The position numbers were made by a program, and so were the translations under genes. A stretch of 64,000 bases of DNA. Origin: Candidatus Aenigmatarchaeota archaeon. Its GTDB lineage: Archaea > Aenigmatarchaeota > Aenigmatarchaeia > GW2011-AR5. Location of the stretch: positions 40,962 through 104,961 of the forward strand of contig JACPRW010000010.1 in NCBI GenBank assembly GCA_016193585.1, in the 5' to 3' direction. Shown piece by piece: positions 7,021 through 63,655 of the stretch; the stretch's first letter is position 1, and every line of letters starts with the position of its first letter. A model generated the notes under the pieces. It made no database searches and was not told the DNA's origin. It was given only the letters and a program-made list of their open reading frames with translations.

Positions 7021-8121
7021 ATGCTCAGGGACGTATACGCCACAAAAACAAAAGGCGACTTTCCTGAAAAGATGACGCTCGTTCTCGAATCCGCCGGAAA
7101 GAAGACGGAACACGTGTTTCTGCCGTTGTACGAGCTGCGGTACGGCACGAACCCGCACCAGCCTGGAATGCTCTACATTAACGAATCGTACAACTTCCGC
7201 ATCGCCGAGGTGAAGTCCGGGAAGAGCGGGCTGTCGCTTGGCAACGCGGAGGACATTTTCAGGGCATCGAATCTCCTCAAGTACTTCTCTCTGCCCGCAT
7301 GCGCGGTCATGAAGCACTGCAACCCGACCGGTGTTGCAGTTTCTGCGACGGCAGGCGATGCCTTCGCTAAGGCGTGGCACTGCGACCCGGTCGCGGCATA
7401 CGGAAGCGTGGTTGCGTTCAACGTCGCGGTGACAAAAGAACTTGCCGAAACGCTGGCGCGTAAAGACTATTTTGTCGAAGTTGTTGCGGCACCGGCGTTC
7501 GAGGAGCGCGCACTCGATGTTTTCGCGGCAAAAAAAAATCTCCGCGTGGTTGTGCTGGAAGGGCTGGGCACGTTGCCAAAATTCGCCGGCGATGACGCAA
7601 CACCGTGGATCAAGAGCCTCGGCAGCTTCAGGGGAATCATTGTCCTCGAGGAGCCGTTCCTGACGCACTTCAGGAAGCCGGAAGACCTGCTTGCTGCGGA
7701 GGGCGGTGGCGTGGTGACGAAACGGGAGCCGGCGAAAAGGGAGCTCGAGAATCTGCTCTTTGCGTGGTACGTATGCTCGTCGCTCCGCTCGAATGCGATA
7801 GCGATTGCACGGGACTTATACACGGTCGCGTGCGGAACCGGCCAACCTGACCGCGTGCGTGCCGTGTACCAGTCGGTGCAGCGGACAGCATGGCTGGACA
7901 AGAGGCTGGGGAATCGGGAGGATTACCGTCTTGAAGGCTCGGTGCTCGCGTCAGACGGCTATTTCCCGTTCGCTGATTCTATCGAGGCATGCGCCGAGTC
8001 CGGCATCACCGCCATCGTGCAGCCCGGAGGATCGATAAGGGACAAGGAAATCATCGAGGCCGCGGACAAGGCAAACATCTCGATGGTTTTCACCGGTGAG
8101 CGCTGCTTCTCGCACCATTAG
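7021..8121 (+). CDS. purH: AICAR transformylase (PurH C-terminal domain type)
   Basis: LRYGTNPHQPGMLY, MKHCNPTGVAVS, DPVAAYGSVVAFN, VQPGGSIRDKEII. Confidence 0.9.
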   Translation: MLRDVYATKTKGDFPEKMTLVLESAGKKTEHVFLPLYELRYGTNPHQPGMLYINESYNFRIAEVKSGKSGLSLGNAEDIFRASNLLKYFSLPACAVMKHCNPTGVAVSATAGDAFAKAWHCDPVAAYGSVVAFNVAVTKELAETLARKDYFVEVVAAPAFEERALDVFAAKKNLRVVVLEGLGTLPKFAGDDATPWIKSLGSFRGIIVLEEPFLTHFRKPEDLLAAEGGGVVTKREPAKRELENLLFAWYVCSSLRSNAIAIARDLYTVACGTGQPDRVRAVYQSVQRTAWLDKRLGNREDYRLEGSVLASDGYFPFADSIEACAESGITAIVQPGGSIRDKEIIEAADKANISMVFTGERCFSHH

Positions 8122-8615: not shown

Positions 8616-8764
8616 TATAGTGAACCAAGTAAACAATCAGGTATTATATCTTGGTTCACTTACACGCAAAAAGCAAAGCTTTTTGGTGCACCGGAAAACC
8701 TTGTTTTCCGCGTGTAGCGGACAACAAAAGTAATATGTTGGTATTCTTTTGTTGGTCCACTATA
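8616..8764. repeat. TATAGT/ACTATA-bounded hairpin element, copy E2
   Basis: GTGAACCAAG..CTTGGTTCAC; double-hairpin cassette TACACG[..]GTGCAC[..]CGTGTA; GGACAACAAAAG..CTTTTGTTGGTCC with loop TAATATGTTGGTATT. Confidence 0.85.
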
Positions 8765-8803
8765 AACCTTGCAAAAAGAATGCTTTTTTGCGCCGCGGGC
8801 GCT

Positions 8804-8945
8804 GCTGGGGTAGCCAAGTTTGGTTCAAGGCGCAGGTCTGGAAAACCTGTGAGCGAAAGCTCGCGTGGGTTCAAATGACCTTTTCTTGAAAAGGAAATCT
8901 CAGCCAAAAGAAGAGAGAAAAGGCCGGAAAGTCCCACCCCCAGCG
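8804..8945 (+). tRNA. tRNA-Ser(GGA) with T-loop intron (~8877..8932)
   Basis: Acceptor GCTGGGG/CCCCAGC; CAGGTCTGGAAAACCTG anticodon arm; T-arm GTGGGTTCAAAT[56 nt]CCCAC. Confidence 0.85.
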
Positions 8946-9009
8946 CTTTTTTCCACCGCACATTTAAGCATTGCTTGCCAGAGTACTGACATAGACAGCA
9001 GGAACCAAA

Positions 9010-9175
9010 GGGCCGGTAGTCTAGTAAGCTTTTTGGGAAAAAGCTTAACCAAAAACTTGGAATATGGTTATCTGCAAAGACCCGGGATCTTTGAGATCTT
9101 GGTTGCAGAATTGCAACCACAGATGACGCCACGCTTACAACGTGGAGACCGGCAGTTCGATTCTGCCCTGGCCCA
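9010..9175 (+). tRNA. tRNA-Val(TAC) with one or two D-arm introns
   Basis: Acceptor GGGCCGG/CCTGGCCC; anticodon arm CCACGCTTACAACGTGG; ~90 nt inserted in the D-arm. Confidence 0.85.
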
Positions 9176-11300: not shown

Positions 11301-11420
11301 GCTCCGTTAGTCTAGCCCGGTCAAGGATGGTGGCCTTTCGACGACCTTTTTTGGAAAAAAAGCTCGACCAAAAAAGCGGGAGCAAAGCCGCAGACACGGG
11401 TTCGAATCCCGTACGGAGCA
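11301..11420 (+). tRNA. tRNA-Glu(TTC) with 45-nt intron after the anticodon loop (11342..11386)
   Basis: GCTCCGT/ACGGAGC acceptor; GTGGC CTTTCGA [intron] GCCGC. Confidence 0.88.
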
Positions 11421-17228: not shown

Positions 17229-17940
17229 CAGATACGTCGGTGAACAGTCTTTTAATACTTTAAGCACGGATAGTAGTTGGGTTTTCAGCGGCGTGAACGT
17301 CCGTTCACGTCGAAGGGCGGCTTGGTTTGGCAACTGTTGCTCACAGGATTTTGATACGCAGAGGGCGCACTGTCCTTTGGTAATCAGCAATTAGCAGAAC
17401 CAACCGTTTCTCTGTTTCATAATCACGAGCTCTTCGGAGCGATGAATCACGCTGCGCGCCTCGGTAATGGCGTTGTTTTCGAGTGTATGCAAAAAAGAAA
17501 CGGCGGACGCACGGCGTCCGTCCCGCATGCGATGAAAAAACAGTTCACGCGCAGCTCAGGTGAAGGCATTATGCAGTCATAATGTCGGATAGAGGTATGA
17601 GCAGGCCAAACACTATTAGAAAAATTTGCAGGGTAAGTGTTTTCCCTACAATTCCGGTTGATCCCGCCGGAGACTACCTTTATCAGGATTCGGCTAAGCC
17701 ATGCGAGTCACTGCCGCAAGGCAGGGCGAACTGCTCAGTAACACGTAGCTAATCTGCCCTCAGGAAGGGGATAACGCCGCGAAAGTGGCGATAATACCCT
17801 ATAGGCGATAGAGGCTGGAAGGCGCTTTCGCCAAAAGCCGCAAGGCACCTGAGGATGAGGCTGCGGCGGATTAAGCTGTTGTTAGGATAAATGCCTAACA
17901 AACTTATAATCCGTACGGGTCGTGAGAGCGATAGCCCGGA

Positions 17941-18818
17941 GAGAGGTGGTTAACTTTAAATTTTCCCTGAGGCAAGTACCTGTATGCATGTGAATGAAAG
18001 ACGCATGTCAAGATTTATAGGGTATCTGTTCAGTGATGGGAGTTTAAGACGCAAAAAGAATAAAATGGGAATAGAACAAGTAGAAGTTTCGATAGAGTGT
18101 GCAGATCTAGCGATAGTGCAGGATTTTCGGCAACTTTGTAGCGACATTTTAGGAAGAAACGTTGGGAAAATAACCAAGAGAAAACGTGATAAAAACTGGA
18201 GAGCCAGCTACAGCTTTTATTGCAAGTTAAATAAAGAGTGGAGAAAGTTTTTGTTTAGCATGTCACCAACTTTTAGAACTTCTCCATGCCTGGTTAACCT
18301 CCACGGCGGTAAGCTGTGTCAGAAATGTTTAACAAAACACTATAAAGACACGACGTACCCGGGGATTAAAATCCCAAGATTCGTTTATAAAAGCAATAAC
18401 AACATAAAGGATTTTCTTCAGGCATTCACAAATTCAGAAGGAAGTGTTCAGTTAAGAGCAAATAGACATGGCAAATGGCTTGAGTTTTCAAGACATATAA
18501 AGATTTCAACTGAACATCCGCTGCTATTAAAAGGAATTTCTAGGATGCTGAAAACCCTTAAAATAAATCATAGATTTGTGCCGAAAACAAACCCAAATTC
18601 AGTGATAATACAACAAAAAGAATCGATCAAAAAATTTCGAAAATTAATTGGATTCATGGGTGGCATCAGAATAACCCCAACGGGTATCTGGGGAAACTAT
18701 GAAAAAACAAAAATTCTAGATGCAATAATAAAGACATTCGATTTTGATCGAGGATTTCTGCAAACATTTTTAGATGATAATGAAATATACTCTTTCATAA
18801 AAGTTAACCACCTCCCGG
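17941..18818 (+). mobile_element. 16S intron 1 with LAGLIDADG gene
   Basis: Terminal complementarity GAGAGGTGGTTAACTTT / AAAGTTAACCACCTC; interrupts the conserved region after AGCCCGGA. Confidence 0.8.
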
Positions 18819-18859
18819 ATATGGCTTCTGAGATTTGCAGAATAGAATCTCTGAAGTAA
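17984..18859 (+). CDS. LAGLIDADG homing endonuclease
   Basis: FIGYLFSDGSL and FLQAFTNSEGSV; C-terminus appears to read into the 3' exon. Confidence 0.85.
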   Translation: MHVNERRMSRFIGYLFSDGSLRRKKNKMGIEQVEVSIECADLAIVQDFRQLCSDILGRNVGKITKRKRDKNWRASYSFYCKLNKEWRKFLFSMSPTFRTSPCLVNLHGGKLCQKCLTKHYKDTTYPGIKIPRFVYKSNNNIKDFLQAFTNSEGSVQLRANRHGKWLEFSRHIKISTEHPLLLKGISRMLKTLKINHRFVPKTNPNSVIIQQKESIKKFRKLIGFMGGIRITPTGIWGNYEKTKILDAIIKTFDFDRGFLQTFLDDNEIYSFIKVNHLPDMASEICRIESLK

Positions 18860-19075
18860 GAATGCTCTCATTGAGCCGCATTCTTAGGCTTGCTGTTCTG
18901 CGAACAGAAAACATAAAGCCAGGCTCTACGGAGCGCAGCAGGCGCGAAACCTTTCCAATGCGCGAAAGCGTGAGAAGGGAATCCTGAGTGATTTCGCGCG
19001 AGCGAAATCTTTTCTCTAGTCTAAACAGCTGGAGGAATAAGTGGTGGGTAAGACGGTTGCCAGCCGCCGCGGTAA

Positions 19076-19157
19076 TTTGCAGAATCGACGCACGATTCAG
19101 TCTGGCATCGCATGGATTTCAGGCGATTCTGAAATTTCCGGTTCTGCGAACCGTAAA
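19076..19157 (+). mobile_element. 16S ORF-less insertion at the ~530 loop (GCGGTAA | CCGCGCC)
   Basis: ~80 nt between universally conserved 16S segments. Confidence 0.75.
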
Positions 19158-19233
19158 TAACCGCGCCACGAGAGGTAGTCACGATTATTGGGCCTGAAGC
19201 GCCCGTAGCCGGGCTGGTGTGTCTCTGGTGAAA

Positions 19234-19300
19234 TTCGCAAAAAGCAGAGCTTTTTGGAATTTGCTGTTCGCAACTTCCGATGCTTCATTTGCGAACACCA
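19234..19300 (+). repeat. 16S insertion containing CAAAAAGC-aga-GCTTTTTG hairpin
   Basis: Extra sequence in the helix before GGAGATACTACCAGTC; hairpin nearly identical to those in E2 and a 23S insertion. Confidence 0.7.
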
Positions 19301-19894
19301 AATCCGGCAGCAAACTGTCGGGCTTGCTGGAGATACTACCAGTCTTGGGACCGGGAGAGGCCGATGGTACGTTACGGGTAAGGGTAAAATCTTTTAATCC
19401 GTAACGGACCACCTGTGGCGAAGGCGATCGGCTGGAACGGGTTCGACGGTGAGGGGCGAAAGCTAGGGGAGCGATCGGGATTAGATACCCCGGTAGTCCT
19501 AGCTGTTAACGATGCCCGCTTGGTGTTGCATGTCCTTCGTGGACATGCAGTGTCGTAGCGAAGGCGATAAGCGGGCCGCCTGGGGAGTACGACCGCAAGG
19601 TTGAAACTTAAGGGAATTGGCGGGGGAGCACTACCAGGGGTGGAGGCTGCGGTTCAATTGGATTCAACGCCAGGAACCTGACCCGGGAAGACAGCAGAAT
19701 GAGGGTCACTCTGAAGGGGTTACCTGACAAGCTGAGAGGTGCTGCATGGCCGTCGTCAGTTCGTGCTGTGAAGTGTCATGTTAAGTCATGAAACGAACGA
19801 GACCCGTGCCGCTAGTTGCCACTCCCTTCTTCGGAAGGGAAGCACTCTATCGGGACCGCTGGTGCTAAACCAGAGGAAGGGACGGTCGACGGCA

Positions 19895-20725
19895 GATAGG
19901 GGAAGGTGAATCTACAAATACTAGCCTAAACAAGGTTAGTATATGCCTCCAACGTCAGTATCTTTACATCAAATTAGAAAGATGTTCAGAGACGTTAAGA
20001 AACTGACAAAAGATTTCAGAGAAATAAAGCCAGAATTGATTGAAAATGATGCATCCAAAATACTAATCTTGCGCTTGGCTCTCCAAATGTCGCAAAATAA
20101 TTTTGAAACATTTGTCGGGGCTGAAAACAACAAGAATATCAGCAAGTATGAAAGGGGCATCATAAAGAAAATGAAAGCGAAAACTGCAGAAAAGTACATA
20201 GAAAAGATTAAAGGAAAACTAAAAGAAAATGTAACAGAAGAAAATGTACTTCTGGCTTACAAAAGAATGGCTTCTGAATCAAATGGTTTCTTCAAAGCAA
20301 ACCAAGGGACTAAAAAAGTTCTCTTGGCCCAAAGAAAAGGTGCAATAAATTCATTGCGTCTCAGATCGACTGAACAGGAAATGTCTGTGATGGCTTTTCT
20401 CGAGTCTAACGGACTTAATCCAGAGATAAATTTTCCATTAGACGAAAACAAAGGCATCATAACCGACATCTTTCTACGAGATCATCATATAGCAATTGAA
20501 TGTAAGGATATCAAAACAAAAAGCTACAAAGAGCACAAAAATAACATACGGCTTCTTGCATATCAAGGTTATAGAATAAAATTTAATTTCAAAACACTAA
20601 AACTTGCTGCATTCGTGAAATCTAACTTCGCAGTAAGTCAGAGAGACCTTGAAGAATTGAAAGGACCTTATGATTTTGTTTTTACTGACGTTGGAGAGCT
20701 GAAGCATATCATCGTCCCCTAGCCG
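19895..20725 (+). mobile_element. 16S intron near site ~1205 encoding a non-LAGLIDADG nuclease
   Basis: ATAGGGGA...TCCCCTA terminal stem; interrupts GACGGTCGACGGCAG | ATGTCAGTATGGCCCGAATTCC. Confidence 0.85.
19943..20722 (+). CDS. Predicted XRE-HTH + PD-(D/E)XK-like (putative homing) endonuclease
   Basis: LALQMSQNNFETFVG..ISKYERG HTH-like; RSTEQEMSVMAFLESNG...ITDIFLRDHHIAIECKD nuclease-like motif; no LAGLIDADG. Confidence 0.65.
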   Translation: MPPTSVSLHQIRKMFRDVKKLTKDFREIKPELIENDASKILILRLALQMSQNNFETFVGAENNKNISKYERGIIKKMKAKTAEKYIEKIKGKLKENVTEENVLLAYKRMASESNGFFKANQGTKKVLLAQRKGAINSLRLRSTEQEMSVMAFLESNGLNPEINFPLDENKGIITDIFLRDHHIAIECKDIKTKSYKEHKNNIRLLAYQGYRIKFNFKTLKLAAFVKSNFAVSQRDLEELKGPYDFVFTDVGELKHIIVP

Positions 20726-20895
20726 ATGTCAGTATGGCCCGAATTCCCTGGGGTTACACGCGGCCTACAATGCGTAGGACAATGGGATGCGATGCCGTGA
20801 GGCAAAGCCAATCTCCTAAACCTACGCTTAGTTCGGATCGGGGGCTGCAACCCGCCCCCGTGAAGCCGGAATCCCTAGTAAGCGAAGGTCATCAT

Positions 20896-20993
20896 GAATG
20901 CGCGTTCGCAGGATGATTGGTCGTGCATGCGGCGGAGTGTAACGCTGCGTGCAGTGCAGCACAATGACATGTTCGCGCGTCCGTGAACTCTTT
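20896..20993 (+). mobile_element. 16S ORF-less insertion near site ~1391
   Basis: ~100 nt between GGTCATCAT and GCTGAATGCGTCCCTGCTCCTTGCACACACC. Confidence 0.75.
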
Positions 20994-21002
20994 CGCTGAA
21001 TG

Positions 21003-21034
<32 letters not shown>

Positions 21035-21102
21035 GCCATCCGAGTGGGAACTTGGTGAGGCGTGCGTTGAGCACGTCGAATCAAGTTTCTGCAAGGAGGG
21101 CT

Positions 21103-21268
21103 AAGAGCTCTTCTGTTCGCGCAAAAGAGCGAGCATTCGTAAAGTAACGAATGGGCGATTTGATTTGCTGGGTATGTAGATTACAAGGCTTGACCCTGAA
21201 CCAGCAGAGATGACAGGACTGAAGCGGCAGTGACGACGTGTTCGTCACTCAGTATCCAGTCGTTGCTC
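21103..21268 (+). mobile_element. 16S ORF-less insertion near the 3' end
   Basis: ~165 nt between AAGGAGGGCTAAG and AACAAGGTAGCCGTACGGG. Confidence 0.7.
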
Positions 21269-22696: not shown

Positions 22697-24038
22697 TTAT
22701 GAGCTACCGATGGGAACCGCAGCGCATCGAGCTGCCGCTCGACGTCAGGTGGCCGCAGTTGCGGGAAGTCTATGAGCGTCTCGACAGGAAGGGGAAAAAG
22801 TCTCGGTATCGAGACGCATCCGACCTACCTCATTGTCGTTGCCGTACCGCTTGATCCTCGGGACATGAGCGACATCCGGCGGGTGAACGGACCGGAAGGC
22901 TACCATGCAGGGGATTGAATCGCGGCTCCCGCACTCGTCATCTTTATATACTTTTATCCGGTATTAGTGCTGGTTGCAGGGTCAGCAATCCTGCGTTTGT
23001 TTTACAGTACCATACGAGAAAACTACCGAGGCTGTTCAGAGTCGGTACAAGCTTTGTGGCAGAAGCGTGTGTCGTCAGCGGGTAGCGGCGTGAATCAGAA
23101 CGTCACTATGCATGCGTTGCTTCTGGACTTCTTCGGTGCACTACCTGCAATGGCAGCACGCTGTGCGAGTCAGCTGTTGTCGGTTGACATGTGGCCGGCC
23201 AGCGCCGCTGGTTTGGTTGAATGCTGATGTTCTTGATGAGGCAGTCATAGTCCAGGACGAAGATAGCTAGCTCCCACGCTGTCAGGTGGATAGCTCGGTT
23301 CGCGAGGCGACGAAGGAGGTGGCAAGCTGCCGTAAGGTGCGGCAAGGCGCATGCAGCCTTTGAACCGCACATCTCCGAATGGCACATAGCCGACAACTCG
23401 CGGAAGACAAATCGACGCACCCTCAGGTGCGTCAAGTCGCTTTCTGCGAGAGCGAACGCAGAGAATTAAAACATTTTAGTACCTGCAGAAAGAGAAAGCA
23501 ACAGCGATCTCCCCAGTAATGGCGAATGAAAAGGAGACAGAACAAACCGAAGCTCCCTGGAAACAGGGTAGCGATGTGGAGAGGGCAGGGGCCGTTCTTC
23601 GTTTGCCGACCCGAAGTGTGCTGGAACGCACTGGTACAAAGCGTGATACCCGCGTAGGGGAAGGCAAAAAAGAATATGCCCTGCTGCACGAGTATGGCCG
23701 GCCGGATAGCCGGTCAGAATACGGGTCTCATCTAGACCCAATTCTAAACACTCCGCGAAACCGATAGTGAAGTAGTACGGTGACGGAACGATGAAAAGAA
23801 GGGGTAACACCCGATGAAAAAAGCTTGAAACCTGGCAGCTATCGTTTGTTGGGTAAGGCTCCCGCAAGGGAGAAGAATCCAACGTCCGTTTTGAATAACG
23901 GGGCAGGGAGTTCATGGCAGTGGCGAGGCTAAGCGCTTCACGCGCGGAGCCGGAGCGAAAGCGAATGCGCGCAGGCAACAAGGCGCACCGTATGAAAGTG
24001 CGGAAGTCACTGCCCTGAGACCTGAAAATTTGGGAGTG

Positions 24039-24862
24039 AGTGAAGGTTTGCTGGCTCGATGGGCTTATTTTTCTTTTGCTGAAGCGAAATTAAGATAAGC
24101 CCATCTTGCCCAATAAGTCTATGGAAGCGAGAGATACGTTGATGGCTCGGCTCATAGCTTTGTTGCTTACCGATGGCGGACTTTGTGGAATAGGTAAAAG
24201 GTGGCGGATTCATTTCACGTCAAATTCAGAACAATTGGTAAGTGAATTCCAAGCACTGGTAAAGAATCTTTTCGATCTCAAAATGGTAAAAGACTATCGG
24301 AAAGGTGCATGGAGAATTCAGACATGGGTGAGCAATAAAGTGAAAGAAGAGCTTTTAGCATATTCCAAAACGTATAGAACGCTTTCTATAGAGGAAAAAG
24401 AGACGGAAGCTGAAATACCGGCTTTTATCAGAAACGACAAAGAACTTGCACGCGAATTCCTAAAATATGCATTCACGGCAGACGGGACAGTAATTTTCAA
24501 CATCGGAAAAGCACGGTATGGCTTTAGGTTCGATAGATGCGTGAAATTATATTCCGAGCACGCCCGTCTGAGAAACCAGTATTTCGAACTTTTGCAGAAA
24601 CTTGGTTATAGACCGGTCATGCTTAAAGATGCGGTGCTGCTAAGAAAGCCAACCAACATGACTAAGTTTGCAAACGAAATTGGTTTTGTAGAAGGTGTAA
24701 AAATTTCAGGCAAAGGTTTATGGAAAGGTATTACAAAAGACCGATTAACGGAATTCGCCGCAAATTCGTACAGTTTGAAGCCGAAAAAATTGGGGAAATC
24801 AAAAGCTGACATTCATGCGAACCTTGTAAATCTCATTCTCAAATCAGGAGACCAGATGATCT
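24039..24862 (+). mobile_element. 23S intron with LAGLIDADG gene
   Basis: Interrupts ..GGGAGTGAG | CTAGCCCTGGGCAAGG.. Confidence 0.8.
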
Positions 24863-24864
24863 AG
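24106..24864 (+). CDS. LAGLIDADG homing endonuclease
   Basis: LIALLLTDGGL and FLKYAFTADGTV; stop TAG lies in the 3' exon CTAGCCCTGGG. Confidence 0.88.
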   Translation: MPNKSMEARDTLMARLIALLLTDGGLCGIGKRWRIHFTSNSEQLVSEFQALVKNLFDLKMVKDYRKGAWRIQTWVSNKVKEELLAYSKTYRTLSIEEKETEAEIPAFIRNDKELAREFLKYAFTADGTVIFNIGKARYGFRFDRCVKLYSEHARLRNQYFELLQKLGYRPVMLKDAVLLRKPTNMTKFANEIGFVEGVKISGKGLWKGITKDRLTEFAANSYSLKPKKLGKSKADIHANLVNLILKSGDQMI

Positions 24865-24956
24865 CCCTGGGCAAGGCGACGCTGGGCGAAAGCTCAGTAG
24901 AAGCCTGCTACCGAACATAGTACAAACTTGTCGGGTGACCTGGGGTTAGGGGTGAA

Positions 24957-25273
24957 ATTCAGGGAGAAGAAGACTTAAGAAGATGTCCGTGAAAATGCGA
25001 GGAATGGGAACATGTGAGTATTGCAAACGTCCTGTATCGCCATTCGGCGATATGTCACGAGGGATACCGGGCCCATCGTATGCACTGCTGGAAGATGGTA
25101 AAGAAATAGCATTTTGCGGGGTTCCTTGTGAAATGTTCTATGTGCTGGAAACGGGCACTTCGCTCAGAAAAACTGATGGAAGACCGAATGAAGCATTTCC
25201 AAGCGATATTGGAAGTGAAGGCATCGCGGATCCTAAACATCCTGGATATAGCAAGAACTAGTTCTCTCTGAAC
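24957..25273 (+). mobile_element. 23S intron encoding a small zinc protein
   Basis: TTCAGGGAGAA / TTCTCTCTGAA termini; interrupts GGGGTGAAA | AATCGAATCTGG. Confidence 0.75.
24983..25261 (+). CDS. Intron-encoded TRASH-like zinc-binding protein (92 aa)
   Basis: CEYCKRPV...IAFCGVPCEMFYVLE (CxxC..FCxxxCxxFY). Confidence 0.55.
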   Translation: MSVKMRGMGTCEYCKRPVSPFGDMSRGIPGPSYALLEDGKEIAFCGVPCEMFYVLETGTSLRKTDGRPNEAFPSDIGSEGIADPKHPGYSKN

Positions 25274-25620
25274 ACCAAAAGCCAATCGAATCTGGTTATA
25301 GCGGGTTCCTTCCGAAATGTATCTCAGTACAGCCTCGTCTTGGGTAGATAGTGGGGTAGAGCACTGATTAGGCAGTCAAGGAGGGAGACTTCCACCTGTC
25401 TTGTCAAACTCCGAATCCATTATCGCGCAGACGGGAGTGAGCATGCCGGAGTAATTTTGGCATGCGAGAGGGAAACAACCCAGACCATGGTTAAGGTCCC
25501 TAAGTAGCTGTTAAGTACACCGAAGGTAGTCCTGAATCTCAGACAACGGGAAGGTTGTCTTAGAAGTAGACATCCTATAATCAACGTGTAATAACGGACC
25601 CGCCGAGATTCAGGGCGCTG

Positions 25621-25690
25621 AAAATAAACTTTTTGGGAAAAAGTTTAATCAAAAACCCAGAATGTTTGTCAGCAAAATGGACGGGGTTAA
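25621..25690 (+). mobile_element. 23S mini-insertion homologous to the tRNA-Val D-arm intron
   Basis: TAAACTTTTTGGGAAAAAGTTTAATCAAAAACCCAGAAT vs TAAGCTTTTTGGGAAAAAGCTTAACCAAAAACTTGGAAT. Confidence 0.75.
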
Positions 25691-25830
25691 ACAGCTCACC
25701 GATACCATGGGCACTGCACCCGCAGTGTGGTAGGGAGGCGTGCTGCGAGGGCAGAAGCTTCTCCGTGAGGAGGGGTGGACCTTGCAGCAATGAAGATCCT
25801 GCCGGGAGTAGCAATCAAGTCGGGCGAGAA

Positions 25831-26198
25831 ATGGCAGGAGAAGGTATATGAAAGTTTCTGATAGAGTAAATAGTACTGATAAATAGACTTGAAATAAGGT
25901 TTTCCACATGCATCAGTATAGGCTTAGTCTAAAAAGATGGAAAATTTCAAGTGAATTGCCGCGTATAGCAGGCGAGTTTTATGAAGCAGTACACAAACGG
26001 CAACTCTGGGATAATTTAAGACCCGAATTATCAATTAAACCTGATGGGCCTTATGTCAATACGTGCCATCTTAGAGTCAGGAAAGGATTATACCCAGCTA
26101 TTTATTCTATGGCAGATTCTTACGATTTAGAAATAGAAGATACAACATCTTTGTTTCTACGACTTAAGTTTTGGTAATTCTTTCTCCTCCACTCAATT
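25831..26198 (+). mobile_element. 23S intron encoding an 89-aa orphan protein
   Basis: AGGAGAA / TTTCTCCT termini; interrupts GTCGGGCGAGAA | AATTCCCGACCGCC. Confidence 0.7.
25908..26177 (+). CDS. Intron-encoded orphan protein (89 aa)
   Basis: ORF fills the insertion; no recognised family. Confidence 0.45.
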   Translation: MHQYRLSLKRWKISSELPRIAGEFYEAVHKRQLWDNLRPELSIKPDGPYVNTCHLRVRKGLYPAIYSMADSYDLEIEDTTSLFLRLKFW

Positions 26199-26995
26199 CC
26201 CGACCGCCTGAGGGGCCAGGGTTTCCGCTTAAAGCTTATCTGAGCGGAGTTAGCCGGTCCTAACCGCGCTCTTACGAAGACGCGTGGGAAAGGGAAACAG
26301 GTTAACATTCCTGTGCCATCCAGTGTTCGTCAATCCTGCGGTAAACGCTTCAGGATAGTCCGAGTATGGTCGTCGCCATATCCAAGCCTCGAAGCCGGGG
26401 GAGTGTAGTAACTGCGAGAACCCGGTGAAAGGGTGACGGGACTGATGTATGTCGGTTTTGGACGACTCCCGGAGCCCATGAAAATACTGCAGAGTAGAAT
26501 GCTGGGTGCCCGTACCCAGAACCGACTGTTTAGTTGATGTACTCAACTAAATCGGGAAACAGGTGCCCCTCGCTGAGAACTGAAAAGAGAAGTGTAAACG
26601 CACAGGCAAGAAGTACTCTGAAACCAGCGATCCAGAGCGGTCGATAAACTATGTAGCCAAGCCTGCCAGTGCACGAAACTGGAACTTCTTTTCTTTTCAC
26701 TCAATGGCGAAGGTGTTCGGGAGAATCCGCCTTAGGGAATTCGGCACGAATTGTTTGTTCATGCAAACATTCCCGTAAAATTAGCCGGGTATCTTTGGTA
26801 GAACCGGTGCCTAGTCAGGGATGACTAGGTCGCAGTGACAAGAGGGGTCCGACTGTTTAACAAAAACATAACTGACCGACAAGCCGAAAGGCCTTTTATG
26901 GTCAGCGAGTCGTGGCCACTAGCGGTGTGTGAAACCCCATTCCAATGGGTCTATGCCCCGCTGTAGGCCGGCCCTAACTCTGAGGGTCTTAAGGT

Positions 26996-27288
26996 GACAA
27001 CGTTGCCTTAGTAAAATTTGGCTATATGCGGGAACATCTTGGTGAAGCTTCAGTAGGCAACTGCTGTGGCGACACGGCAACAAAACCTAACAATCTGAAG
27101 CCAAGAGACAATCCGCAGGAAAGGCTTCTCTTTTGGAGAAGAATCCCCAGAGACTGTACGCCAGACTCTTCAATCGGAAGAGAAGATACAGTCCGAACCT
27201 CACGGTGACGTGAGGAGGCGCCAGCGAGTGCCCGCCTTTCACGATAATTATCCGAACCAATGTGAAAGGTTCCCAAGCAACAGAATTG
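26996..27288 (+). mobile_element. Group I intron in 23S rRNA (site ~1931), no ORF
   Basis: P1 AAGGU/GCCUU with U.G at the splice site; P/Q TATGCGGGAAC ... GACAATCCGCAGG; R/S AGACTGTACGCC ... AAGATACAGTCCGAACC; terminal G before exon AGCGTAATCCC. Confidence 0.9.
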
Positions 27289-27310
27289 AGCGTAATCCCT
27301 TGCCAACTAA

Positions 27311-27363
27311 ATTGCAAAAAGCAAAGCTTTTTGGGATCCCCGAAAAGCCATGCTTTTCGTAGA
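27311..27363 (+). repeat. 23S insertion: double hairpin with GGATCC linker
   Basis: CAAAAAGC-aaa-GCTTTTTG GGATCC CGAAAAGC-cat-GCTTTTCG. Confidence 0.8.
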
Positions 27364-27626
27364 TATTGGCCTGCATGATAGATTCACGAGATCCCTGCTG
27401 TCCCGAGGCGGAACCCGGCGAAACCATTTTTCTGGTGAGTAGGCCAGAGACCTCTAGTGGGAAGAGTAGACCCCGTGGAGCTTTACTGTAGTCTGATGTT
27501 GTGGTATGCGTATGAGTGTATAGCGTAGGTAGGAGGCGTCGAAGCCCTGCTGTAAGGTGGGGTGGAGCCGGCGATGTAACACTACCCATTCAAACGCATA
27601 TCGCTCACTTCGCGAGAAGGACACCA

Positions 27627-28280
27627 TCAGATGGACAGTTTGGCTGGGAATTCAAGAGAGGCTAACGAGTTTTTGGCAATCCCAAATTTAGGCGAGTTGC
27701 TATCAGACACAAGGCTCTCATCCAAGAACCCTGAAACTGAAAGAAAGCGCTTGCAGTTGTCAAATCCGGTGATGAGCACAGCCCTGCCGGTCAACCGGCA
27801 CTGTATGTCAAGCGTGGCAAGGCATTCGGCGAGGTGCGTTCTGAGATGCGGATAGTAGCAAGTAATTTCAACTCTGAGTATGCTGTATTTTTTGTTGGCA
27901 TACACTGAACCGTCGCCAGAAGCAAACCCCCTGAGAAAAGCTGCCGCAAAGCTCCTGTCGGTGCGTATAGCAACAGGAACGTTGCAGGTACCTTTTCTAT
28001 AGTGGGGATGCTTTGCTTCCACGCCGTTTCCGGGGATTGATAAGGAAATCAAGGCTCTAGCAATTGGTGAGGAAAAGAACCTCACCGAAACCGCATTGGT
28101 GCATTTGTTTTCGTGAAACCTGCTGATACCGAAACAGTCATGCGCAAGTTTCATGAAAACGTGCCTCAAGCCTTGAAGCTTATTGGTAAATTGGATGCAA
28201 TACGTGCGTTTCGATTTGTCATAATAAATTGAGCCGTCTGATAACAACAAACCGAGAAAAGTTGCCATCTTTTCGTCCAT
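27627..28280 (-). CDS. LAGLIDADG homing endonuclease encoded antisense to 23S rRNA
   Basis: FLGLLLSDGSI and FLRGFASGDGSV; likely start MDEKMATF; stop in the upstream rRNA exon. Confidence 0.85.
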   Translation of the reverse strand: MDEKMATFLGLLLSDGSIYYDKSKRTYCIQFTNKLQGLRHVFMKLAHDCFGISRFHENKCTNAVSVRFFSSPIARALISLSIPGNGVEAKHPHYRKGTCNVPVAIRTDRSFAAAFLRGFASGDGSVYANKKYSILRVEITCYYPHLRTHLAECLATLDIQCRLTGRAVLITGFDNCKRFLSVSGFLDESLVSDSNSPKFGIAKNSLASLEFPAKLSI

Positions 28281-28365
28281 GATGCTTGTTTGCTCCCTGT
28301 GTTTATAGGTGCTTGCCGAGCACATGAAGACTGAAAAGTCGATGAGTTTACTCTCTTGGGTCAGC
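27649..28365 (+). mobile_element. 23S intron carrying an antisense LAGLIDADG gene
   Basis: Interrupts GGACAGTTTGGCTGGG | GGCGGTACGC; CAAGAGAG / CTCTCTTG termini. Confidence 0.82.
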
Positions 28366-28569
28366 AGGCGGTACGCTTTTGAAAGGATATCAAAAGCCCC
28401 CAAAGTTCGGCTTGGCAGGGTCAGAAATCCTGCGGTCAAGTGCAAGCGCAAATGCCGGATTGACTGGACTCCCAACAGTACGGTGTCCAGCGTCGAAAGA
28501 CTGGGCTAGCGATACGCTGGTTGGCCTAGATGGCTGCCAGTGACATGAGAAAAGCTACCCCGGGGATAG

Positions 28570-29165
28570 ATTTATACGTCGGTGTGCACAAGTTAAGCGA
28601 ATGCAAGAAAAAGGTTTCATCTTGGGTGCAACTGAAGACGGTATACTCTACTACAGAGAGAATAAGAATGAATATGGCCTAGAAATCGAACAAAAAGTAA
28701 TGGAATGGCTGTTAGTTGTCCAGGAAGCGCTGAAAATTGCCTATAACAAGCAATCCAGAATAAGGAAAATGAAAAAGGGCTATTATAGGTTGAATGTGTA
28801 TTCAAAATCGCTCTATCATGAGCTGGTTGGATTACGAAACAACCCACAGCGCATTCTTGAGCAACCAGAAGCATTCCAGACTGGCTTCCTTCAAGGTATT
28901 TTTGATGCAGAAGGAAGCGTTCGATTAGATAGAAACCATATAAGCGTCAGCTCAAATAGGGAAAGTCTGATAAGCCTAGTTACTTTCCTGTTAGTCAAAA
29001 GGGATATAATTGCAGGAAAACCATGGCAAGATTCAGCTGGCGTGATATCTCTGTCAATATATGGCATAGATGATATCAAGAAGTTCTCTGATTTAGTAGG
29101 ATTCAGGCACCCTGAAAAAAAGCATAGACTTCAACTTTTAGTGAATGGTGTATAAATCCCCTATA
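28570..29165 (+). mobile_element. 23S intron in the peptidyl-transferase region with LAGLIDADG gene
   Basis: Interrupts GCTACCCCGGGGATA | GGTGTCGTAGCGGGTGAGAG. Confidence 0.8.
28601..29155 (+). CDS. Single-motif LAGLIDADG homing endonuclease
   Basis: FLQGIFDAEGSVRL. Confidence 0.8.
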   Translation: MQEKGFILGATEDGILYYRENKNEYGLEIEQKVMEWLLVVQEALKIAYNKQSRIRKMKKGYYRLNVYSKSLYHELVGLRNNPQRILEQPEAFQTGFLQGIFDAEGSVRLDRNHISVSSNRESLISLVTFLLVKRDIIAGKPWQDSAGVISLSIYGIDDIKKFSDLVGFRHPEKKHRLQLLVNGV

Positions 29166-29198
29166 ATGGTGTCGTAGCGGGTGAGAGTTCTCATCCGC

Positions 29199-29446
29199 GC
29201 TCTTCTTGAGGAATAACGCTGGTAGTGACGAGAATATACCCGTCCCAGTATGAGCGCCGCTTCGCGGCGCGGTGATTACAGCAGGGTAGCTTCTGAACCA
29301 GGCGAAACGTTGTTCCGCAAACACTAGCTAGATGAAGAGCTCATAGCCTTCGAGCCGTCGAAGGCGCTCAGAGCTGTCGTTAGTAAGCAGAACCGAGAGC
29401 CGTGGAGGTCTCGGAACTGCGAGCGAAGCGAGTGGTTCTGAGTGCG
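29199..29446 (+). mobile_element. 23S ORF-less intron
   Basis: TCCGCGCTC / GAGTGCGGA termini; interrupts GAGAGTTCTCAT | CAGATCGACCCCGCG. Confidence 0.72.
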
Positions 29447-29509
29447 GAGAACAGATCGACCCCGCGTGTTGCGGCGTCGCTGTCGGCTGGGCCTCTCCTG
29501 GCTGTGCAG

Positions 29510-29624
29510 CAAAGAAATAAGGCGAACATCTTGCTTGCCCTCAACCGTTTGACACGGCGGATAGCCTCGTATGAAGAACGGCGTTACAAGCGGGATAAGA
29601 ATAACGCCTTGTTTCTCTGCATGC
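29510..29624 (+). mobile_element. 23S ORF-less insertion
   Basis: GCAAAGAAATAAGGCG / CGCCTTGTTTCTCTGC termini. Confidence 0.68.
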
Positions 29625-30173
29625 AGCCAAGGGTGACGGAGTTCACGTATTAAAAGGCCACCTTAGCTGGGTTCAGAACGGCGTGAGCCAGTTTGGTCTA
29701 TATCTGCTAGAGGTGTTACTGCCTGAGGGAAAGGAGGGATAAGTACGAAAGGAACATCCCTTCGTGGCCTCTAGTTTACCTGCTGTCTGACAAGGCATGC
29801 AGGGTAGCCACGCCATACGCTCATTAGGGCTGAAGGCATCTAAGCCTGAAGGAGCTCTCGAAAAGAGGCAGATGGTACGCGCAAGACGACGCGGTATGGG
29901 AGCGGGGTGTACGCACCGAGCTTCGGCGAGGTGTTCAGCCCACGCTTCCCTACACCAATGCTAGCCTTCAAATGGCGCCAGTTGCGGCTGGCGCTTCCTG
30001 GAAACAGGGTCCTGAGACTATGACTGCCCCACGGGAAACGCAGGAATAGCTACTTTAACCTACATTCTCGGGTATAGAAAGGCTTATATATTAGTCCGTT
30101 ATATAAAGTAGTACGTGTGGTTTGGGTTACTCAGTTAATTCAATACATTACAGGCTAGATTGGGGTGTGGACT

Positions 30174-59631: not shown

Positions 59632-59885
59632 TATACTAAACTGCGAAACTTATATGACGCAGATTCGCAGTTTGTATACAGATATAGCAATACAAGGAAA
59701 TAAACACGATACGAGGAGAATCGAAGATTCTCCTGTACAGGTGGATTCATGGAATCCACCTTGTATGACTTCCTTGTTTGCTATACATGGTGAAACAACG
59801 TTTCACCTGTACAGGTAAAGCTTTGCTTTACCATGTATGTGAAACAAGAAGTAATATGTCGGTATTATTTTCTTGTTTCACTATA
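59632..59885. repeat. Hairpin element, copy E7 (largest; two double-hairpin cassettes)
   Basis: AAACTGCGAA..TTCGCAGTTT; ATAGCAATACAAGGAA..TTCCTTGTTTGCTAT; two ATAC..TGTACA..GTAT cassettes; GTGAAACAAGAA..TTCTTGTTTCACTATA. Confidence 0.88.
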
Positions 59886-63517: not shown

Positions 63518-63655
63518 CATAAGCTTTGCACGTAAAGTACCCACACCATTCATGATGGTAGTGGGTTACCAGTTAGCCTACGCCGAAACAGATAGACGCA
63601 CCGTAGGTGCGTCAGTTCAACACACGTAGGCGACTTTACATGCAAAGCCTTTGAG
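63518..63655 (+). ncRNA. Candidate structured RNA / multibranched hairpin region
   Basis: Outer CTTTGCACGTAAAGT/ACTTTACATGCAAAG; inner ACCCAC/GTGGGT, GCCTACG/CGTAGGC, GACGCACC-gta-GGTGCGTC. Confidence 0.5.

Follow-up and report, generated by a model that had tools for sequence, protein, structure and literature searches.

The large subunit (LSU) rRNA gene of an archaeal genome, G000, is interrupted in the loop of H71, at E. coli position ∼1954/1955, by 52 nt that consist almost entirely of two hairpins and a linker, and the first of these hairpins recurs in an intergenic element, E2, and within the small subunit (SSU) rRNA gene. What kind of insertion is this, and how did one hairpin come to be present at three loci? 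The G000 assembly comprises 1.17 Mb in 10 contigs and is 90.75% complete; coordinates refer, unless a locus is named, to the window, by which we mean the whole 64-kb stretch of its contig C8 that was analysed.

The hairpin and its copies

Searching the window with the motif CAAAAAGC-NNN-GCTTTTTG gives perfect matches at 8667, 19238 and 27315, all on the + strand. These are the E2 hairpin (CAAAAAGC-AAA-GCTTTTTG, 8667–8685), a hairpin in an SSU insertion (CAAAAAGC-AGA-GCTTTTTG, 19238–19256) and the first hairpin of the LSU insertion (CAAAAAGC-AAA-GCTTTTTG, 27315–27333), and they lie exactly where a preliminary description of this DNA had reported three near-identical hairpins. That description read the LSU linker as GGATCC; the palindrome is present, inside a full linker of 7 nt, GGATCCC (27334–27340, + strand), which is followed by the second hairpin, CGAAAAGC-CAT-GCTTTTCG (27341–27359, + strand). 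With up to two mismatches allowed, the window contains six matches to the hairpin motif, whereas 100 shuffled versions average 0.09.

Across the G000 genome we found 33 perfect copies of the hairpin and one with a mismatch. Alignment of the flanks of all 33 shows that 31 of them, the copy at 8667 included, belong to a single MITE-like repeat of ∼149 bp, and thus the high hairpin count reflects the repeat rather than the hairpin. The E2 copy of this element (8616–8764, + strand) begins with TATAGTGAACCAAG and ends with TTGGTCCACTATA, which form its terminal inverted repeat, and carries a double hairpin of the form TACACG-hairpin-GTGCAC-hairpin-CGTGTA; a genome-wide search with the left end alone finds 55 sites that match exactly, and 93 at up to one mismatch. 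The only perfect copies outside the repeat are the two in the rRNA genes. These match E2 over the 19–20 nt of the hairpin alone, and no terminal inverted repeats of E2 were found around the rRNA inserts. The hairpin is nonetheless common to a dispersed family and to two rRNA insertions, and to this extent the link drawn in the preliminary description between intergenic DNA and rRNA is borne out. Separately, loci L154, L156, L158 and L159, together with 59640–59880 of the window, hold nested MITE-like families with TATAG..CTATA ends and often a central double hairpin.

Insertions in the rRNA genes as candidate introns

According to the rRNA models, by which G000 is archaeal, the SSU gene spans 17651–21143 and the LSU gene 23262–29969, and the region is swollen by 17 insertions. 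In E. coli numbering these lie at ∼302, 532, 608, 1196 and 1363 of the SSU, and at ∼676, 782, 1127, 1284, 1615, 1632, 1675, 1931, 1954, 2252, 2449 and 2534 of the LSU. The LSU 1931 insertion (26996–27288) is a group I intron, with a core identified by Rfam at 26965–27215 (+ strand); it sits directly upstream of the LSU-1954 insertion, beside many BHB introns. The Rfam match stops at 27215, and no group I catalytic core was found in 27312–27363. Several of the insertions carry LAGLIDADG reading frames (17984–18859, 24106–24864 and 28601–29155).

BHB geometry was scored by script for 15 insertions, leaving out the SSU insertion at 17942–18820. Ten score at least 14, which is the 99th percentile when placements are random and sliding is allowed, and three, LSU-1954 among them, score 12.5–13. 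No BHB model was obtained for two of the 15 as placed by the alignment (25828–26194 and 26577–26702), the latter being BHB-like by eye. The preliminary description had called the rRNA inserts expansion segments; most of them have the geometry of BHB introns instead. Sites such as 2252 and 2449 of the LSU lie in the catalytic core, and this also argues that insertions are removed.

A clear case among the hairpin-bearing insertions is that at E. coli ∼608 of the SSU (69 nt, 19233–19301, + strand, BHB score 17). Its geometry, GGTG-AA^A-TTCGCAAA..TTTGCGAA-CACC-AA^A-TCC, has the textbook form of two 3-nt bulges and a 4-bp central helix, with an inner helix of 8 bp. Excision of the insertion would give GGTGAAATCC, the exact sequence of relatives that do not have it. 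Bulges, helices and exon rejoining together make a strong case that this insertion is a BHB intron. It lies inside h21 and not at the tip, and predicted splicing restores the sequence of relatives exactly, which lends no support to the earlier proposal that such elements colonise the tips of rRNA helices. The same intron is present in G007, where it is 122 nt long and its hairpin is CAGAAAGC-GAA-GCTTTCTG, a compensatory change relative to the CAAAAAGC hairpin of G000. Presence and absence of cassettes is here a comparison across genera, and the difference observed is one of intron contents: the additional 53 nt in G007 contain two further hairpins.

The LSU-1954 insertion (27312–27363, + strand, or an equivalent sliding placement) is a less clear case, and we propose it as a minimal BHB-type intron. 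The putative motif, ccaa-CTA-AA^T-tg..cg-TAG-A^TA-ttgg, has bulges of 3 and 3 nt, but its central and inner helices measure 3 and 2 bp, and its score of 13 is close to the 99th percentile for randomly placed insertions, between the values of two null settings (12–14). In itself it appears weaker than the SSU-608 motif, and the insertions of relatives come to its aid. In the 18 genomes for which the region was available, the site is empty in 12 (a 32-nt site) and occupied in six, by insertions of 52 nt (G000), 128 nt (G003), 744 nt (G006), 70 nt (G007), 57 nt (G013) and 131 nt (G030). In all six, an exon YTA is complementary to an intron TAR placed exactly 3 nt before the 3′ exon; the triplets are TTA:TAA in five genomes and CTA:TAG in G000, a compensatory change. 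The G006 insertion has, by eye, a canonical BHB, in which the pairing is TTAA:TTAA and a 9-bp inner helix encloses the long insert, and those of G003, G007, G013 and G030 are BHB-like. Excision from G000 would leave CTAAATATTGG, identical to the sequence of G008 and G009. The 23S insertion does lie in a loop, but in five relatives this site is occupied by other insertions, whose BHB pairing is the same. The preliminary description had named, as the observation that would count against it, the same expansion in relatives in unrelated sequence with no intergenic counterparts. This is seen in part: G006, G007, G013 and G030 have unrelated sequence inserted at the site, but the insertion of G003 has hairpins of the dispersed type. 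It contains a double hairpin of its own, with different stems, CAAAGAGC and CAGAAAGC, both of which are also dispersed in G000, CAGAAAGC being dispersed in G003 too.

Could the 52 nt instead be kept in the mature rRNA, as an expansion of the H71 tip? In G006 the insertion at this site is a canonical BHB, in four further genomes it is BHB-like, and H71 lies at the subunit interface, so we consider retention improbable, with the weakness of the G000 motif speaking for it. It also has a precedent, in that hairpin elements of mitochondrial rRNA are described, in passages of PMC2800124, as not removed.

RNA folding complicates the picture of local hairpins. The two-hairpin arrangement assumed in the preliminary description is not the predicted minimum-energy fold of the LSU insertion: a 77-nt segment at the site folds into a single rod at −29.0 kcal/mol, compared with −19.7 kcal/mol for the double hairpin plus BHB. 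At SSU-608, an end-to-end stem has −28.1 kcal/mol, compared with −10.6 kcal/mol for a partial structure written by hand. Other structures than the local hairpins being favoured at both rRNA sites, the RNA may lack these hairpins altogether. A rod as long and stable as that at LSU-1954 is what would suit an intervening sequence, cut out by a double-strand RNase and not followed by ligation, so that the 23S rRNA would be fragmented; the BHB pairing of the exon is kept in all six genomes, which fragmentation would not need, and we regard this alternative as highly improbable.

Cleavage of the motif would fall to the tRNA-splicing endonuclease. G000 has one PF01974 ORF, of 211 aa, a size which suggests an alpha4-type enzyme. 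Endonucleases of this type are strict for the canonical BHB, which is an argument against the splicing of a motif as weak as that at LSU-1954. Archaeal splicing endonucleases of broad specificity are described in part of PMC12397907.

A second hairpin type and the wider hairpin class

A second hairpin type makes the same kind of link between rRNA and other loci. The LSU insertion at E. coli ∼1127 (53 nt, 25623–25675, + strand, BHB score 16) contains the hairpin TAAACTTTTT-GGG-AAAAAGTTTA, and the D-loop intron of tRNA-Val(TAC) contains TAAGCTTTTT-GGG-AAAAAGCTTA (9025–9047, + strand). The tRNA-Val gene, at ∼9010–9175, was read by eye, ARAGORN having made no call. The two introns are identical at 29 of 32 nt, with a score of 49 against a null maximum of 24 (n = 2000), and the identity extends past the hairpin. 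The pattern TAARCTTTTT-NNN-AAAAAGYTTA followed by AAYCAAAAA occurs, at up to one mismatch, in 6 of 19 family genomes. Both G008 and G011 have it within tRNA introns, the one oriented oppositely to the other with respect to the tRNA, while in G014, G002 and G003 (three in tandem in the last) it lies outside tRNA genes. The tRNA genes from which the orientations were read were identified by eye, with none called by ARAGORN. That both orientations exist argues for spread as DNA and not by reverse splicing. At 11301–11420 the window holds a further tRNA gene whose intron contains A/T-run hairpin sequence.

These two types belong to a wider set. Perfect hairpins with a stem of at least 8 bp and a loop of 3–5 nt number 72 in 200 kb sampled from G000, where a Markov control has 11, and 43 in 120 kb of G007, where the control has 4. 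The sequence examined contains 29 distinct double hairpins in G000 and 25 in G007. The cassettes have stems of 8–11 bp and mostly 3-nt loops, and are arranged in tandem; the linkers between them are short and in many cases palindromic. Linkers are palindromic in 17 of the 29 in G000, where shuffles give a mean of 7.8 and a maximum of 14; the corresponding 10 of 25 in G007 is not significant (shuffle mean 7.4, maximum 14). Cassettes are located in MITE-like elements, intergenic DNA, tRNA introns and rRNA introns, and this occurrence of short tandem hairpins at unrelated loci places them in the class of double-hairpin or repetitive hairpin elements. The motif AAAAAGC-NNN-GCTTTTT has 30 copies in G007 and 24 in G013, mostly in arrays such as ATTCT-hairpin-GAATCTC-hairpin-CAAGA (as read at 14 loci of G007 and one of G013), and one G007 copy lies, by eye, inside an apparent tRNA gene with an intron.

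Using crude ORF calls, hairpin clusters are commoner between genes than in ORFs in both G000 and G007. On the same crude calls, clusters per kb amount to 1.1 in divergent, 0.7 in convergent and 0.29 in tandem intergenic positions in G000, and to 0.77, 1.48 and 1.43, respectively, in G007. A simple role as terminators is unsupported, given that enrichment between convergent genes is not consistent between the two genomes.

Several other features were noted. In G007 (loci L081–L094), loops of the CAAAAAGC hairpin are mostly GCA or GTA, oriented by the flanks, and the linkers on either side of the stems are complementary, with an offset of one base. Locus L151 has two copies (1000–1330 and 8800–9060) of a structured sequence of ∼300 nt with 3–4 tandem hairpins and conserved outer parts. 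A hairpin GACGCACC..GGTGCGTC occurs at 23414–23433, in a variable region of the LSU, and at 63595–63613, outside the rRNA genes. A PurH-like gene occupies 7021–8121; among the matches listed, the closest (∼42–44% identity) are in Hydrogenedentota records, a possible transfer.

Our conclusion from this set of results, which we hold with somewhat more confidence than doubt, is that the 23S insertion is a BHB-type intron with a double-hairpin body, whose stems are shared with other loci as a result of hairpin DNA having been copied between non-coding sites, and that splicing removes it. Short hairpin DNA would be copied from one non-coding site to another, introns included; the tRNA-splicing endonuclease would excise the introns that carry it; and introns would tolerate such inserts by virtue of their removal. 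If inserts are removed by splicing, the rRNA itself would not be expanded, and the mature ribosome is probably ordinary, since the hairpins lie in intron-like stretches of the genes.

Is copying needed to explain the shared stems? The stems are purine-rich, draw on a narrow vocabulary and have a strong position bias, and a vocabulary so restricted could account, through convergence, for some of the identity. On this alternative, a small set of purine-rich stems would be made, and kept perfect, in place by template switching during replication, with no copying between loci. Template switching can create and maintain perfect hairpins, and the mechanism is described for RNA genes in parts of PMC8794818; as it predicts, the loop of one stem type, when oriented by its flanks in the arrays of G007, reads by eye both as TTC and as GAA, the two possible orientations. 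However, a position model gives stem CAAAAAGC a probability of P = 0.00057, yet two of eight rRNA hairpins have it. Furthermore, identical stem pairs in distinct contexts number 21 (∼16 after removal by hand of copies of the same element), while 300 draws from a first-order null model have a mean of 2.7 and a largest value of 15, and the LSU-1127/tRNA-Val match continues beyond the hairpin. We therefore favour copying over convergence for the shared stems, and regard convergence as unlikely.

A point against copying of hairpin DNA, as we propose it, is that no mover was identified from the two transposase families searched for. Y1_Tnp, the mark of an IS200/IS605-type mover, is absent from G000 and was found in 7 of 19 family genomes, and the DDE_3 transposase is likewise absent from G000. 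We have also considered that the cassettes may form a self-standing class of very small mobile DNA in this archaeal family, whose self-complementary ends would pair with the rRNA or tRNA gene that they enter and generate BHB introns de novo, a proposal that we think rather doubtful.

Comparison with known systems

No report of hairpin repeats in archaeal rRNA introns was found in the open-access literature, searched by titles and abstract openings with limited wording. If our reading is right, hairpin-forming repeats, known mainly from mitochondria, are active in an archaeal chromosome, and introns are places where they can persist in rRNA and tRNA genes, offering a testable route by which the bodies of archaeal introns may change or originate. 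It would also carry a warning, namely that a hairpin 'expansion segment' deduced solely from the sequence of an rRNA gene may in fact be an intron, absent from the ribosome.

The insertions described here resemble archaeal BHB introns of rRNA and tRNA in their exon–intron BHB geometry, in sites shared across genera, in the LAGLIDADG genes of some and in the presence of a tRNA-splicing endonuclease gene. They differ in that their bodies consist of repeat hairpins that are also found outside introns, and the LSU-1954 copy differs further in its minimal length (52 nt) and in its central helix of 3 bp. Group I and BHB introns are known to occur together in archaeal rRNA, site LSU 1931 included, from portions of PMC6125680, and the group I intron just upstream of LSU-1954 is at this known site; the LSU-1954 insertion is separate and has no group I core. 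E2 is like a MITE in its ∼149-bp length, its terminal inverted repeats (TATAG..CTATA), its many near-identical copies and its nesting, whereas the rRNA copies have the internal hairpin alone and no terminal repeats.

Nearest in kind are the mitochondrial double-hairpin and other repetitive hairpin-forming elements, a literature to which the Allomyces work reportedly belongs. Those of fungi, sponges and others are likewise, in the passages of PMC2800124 that concern them, short single or double hairpins with conserved stems and variable loops, placed between genes and in rRNA genes. The elements described here differ from them in being part of an archaeal chromosome, where BHB introns and MITEs contain them, and in having linkers that are in many cases palindromes.
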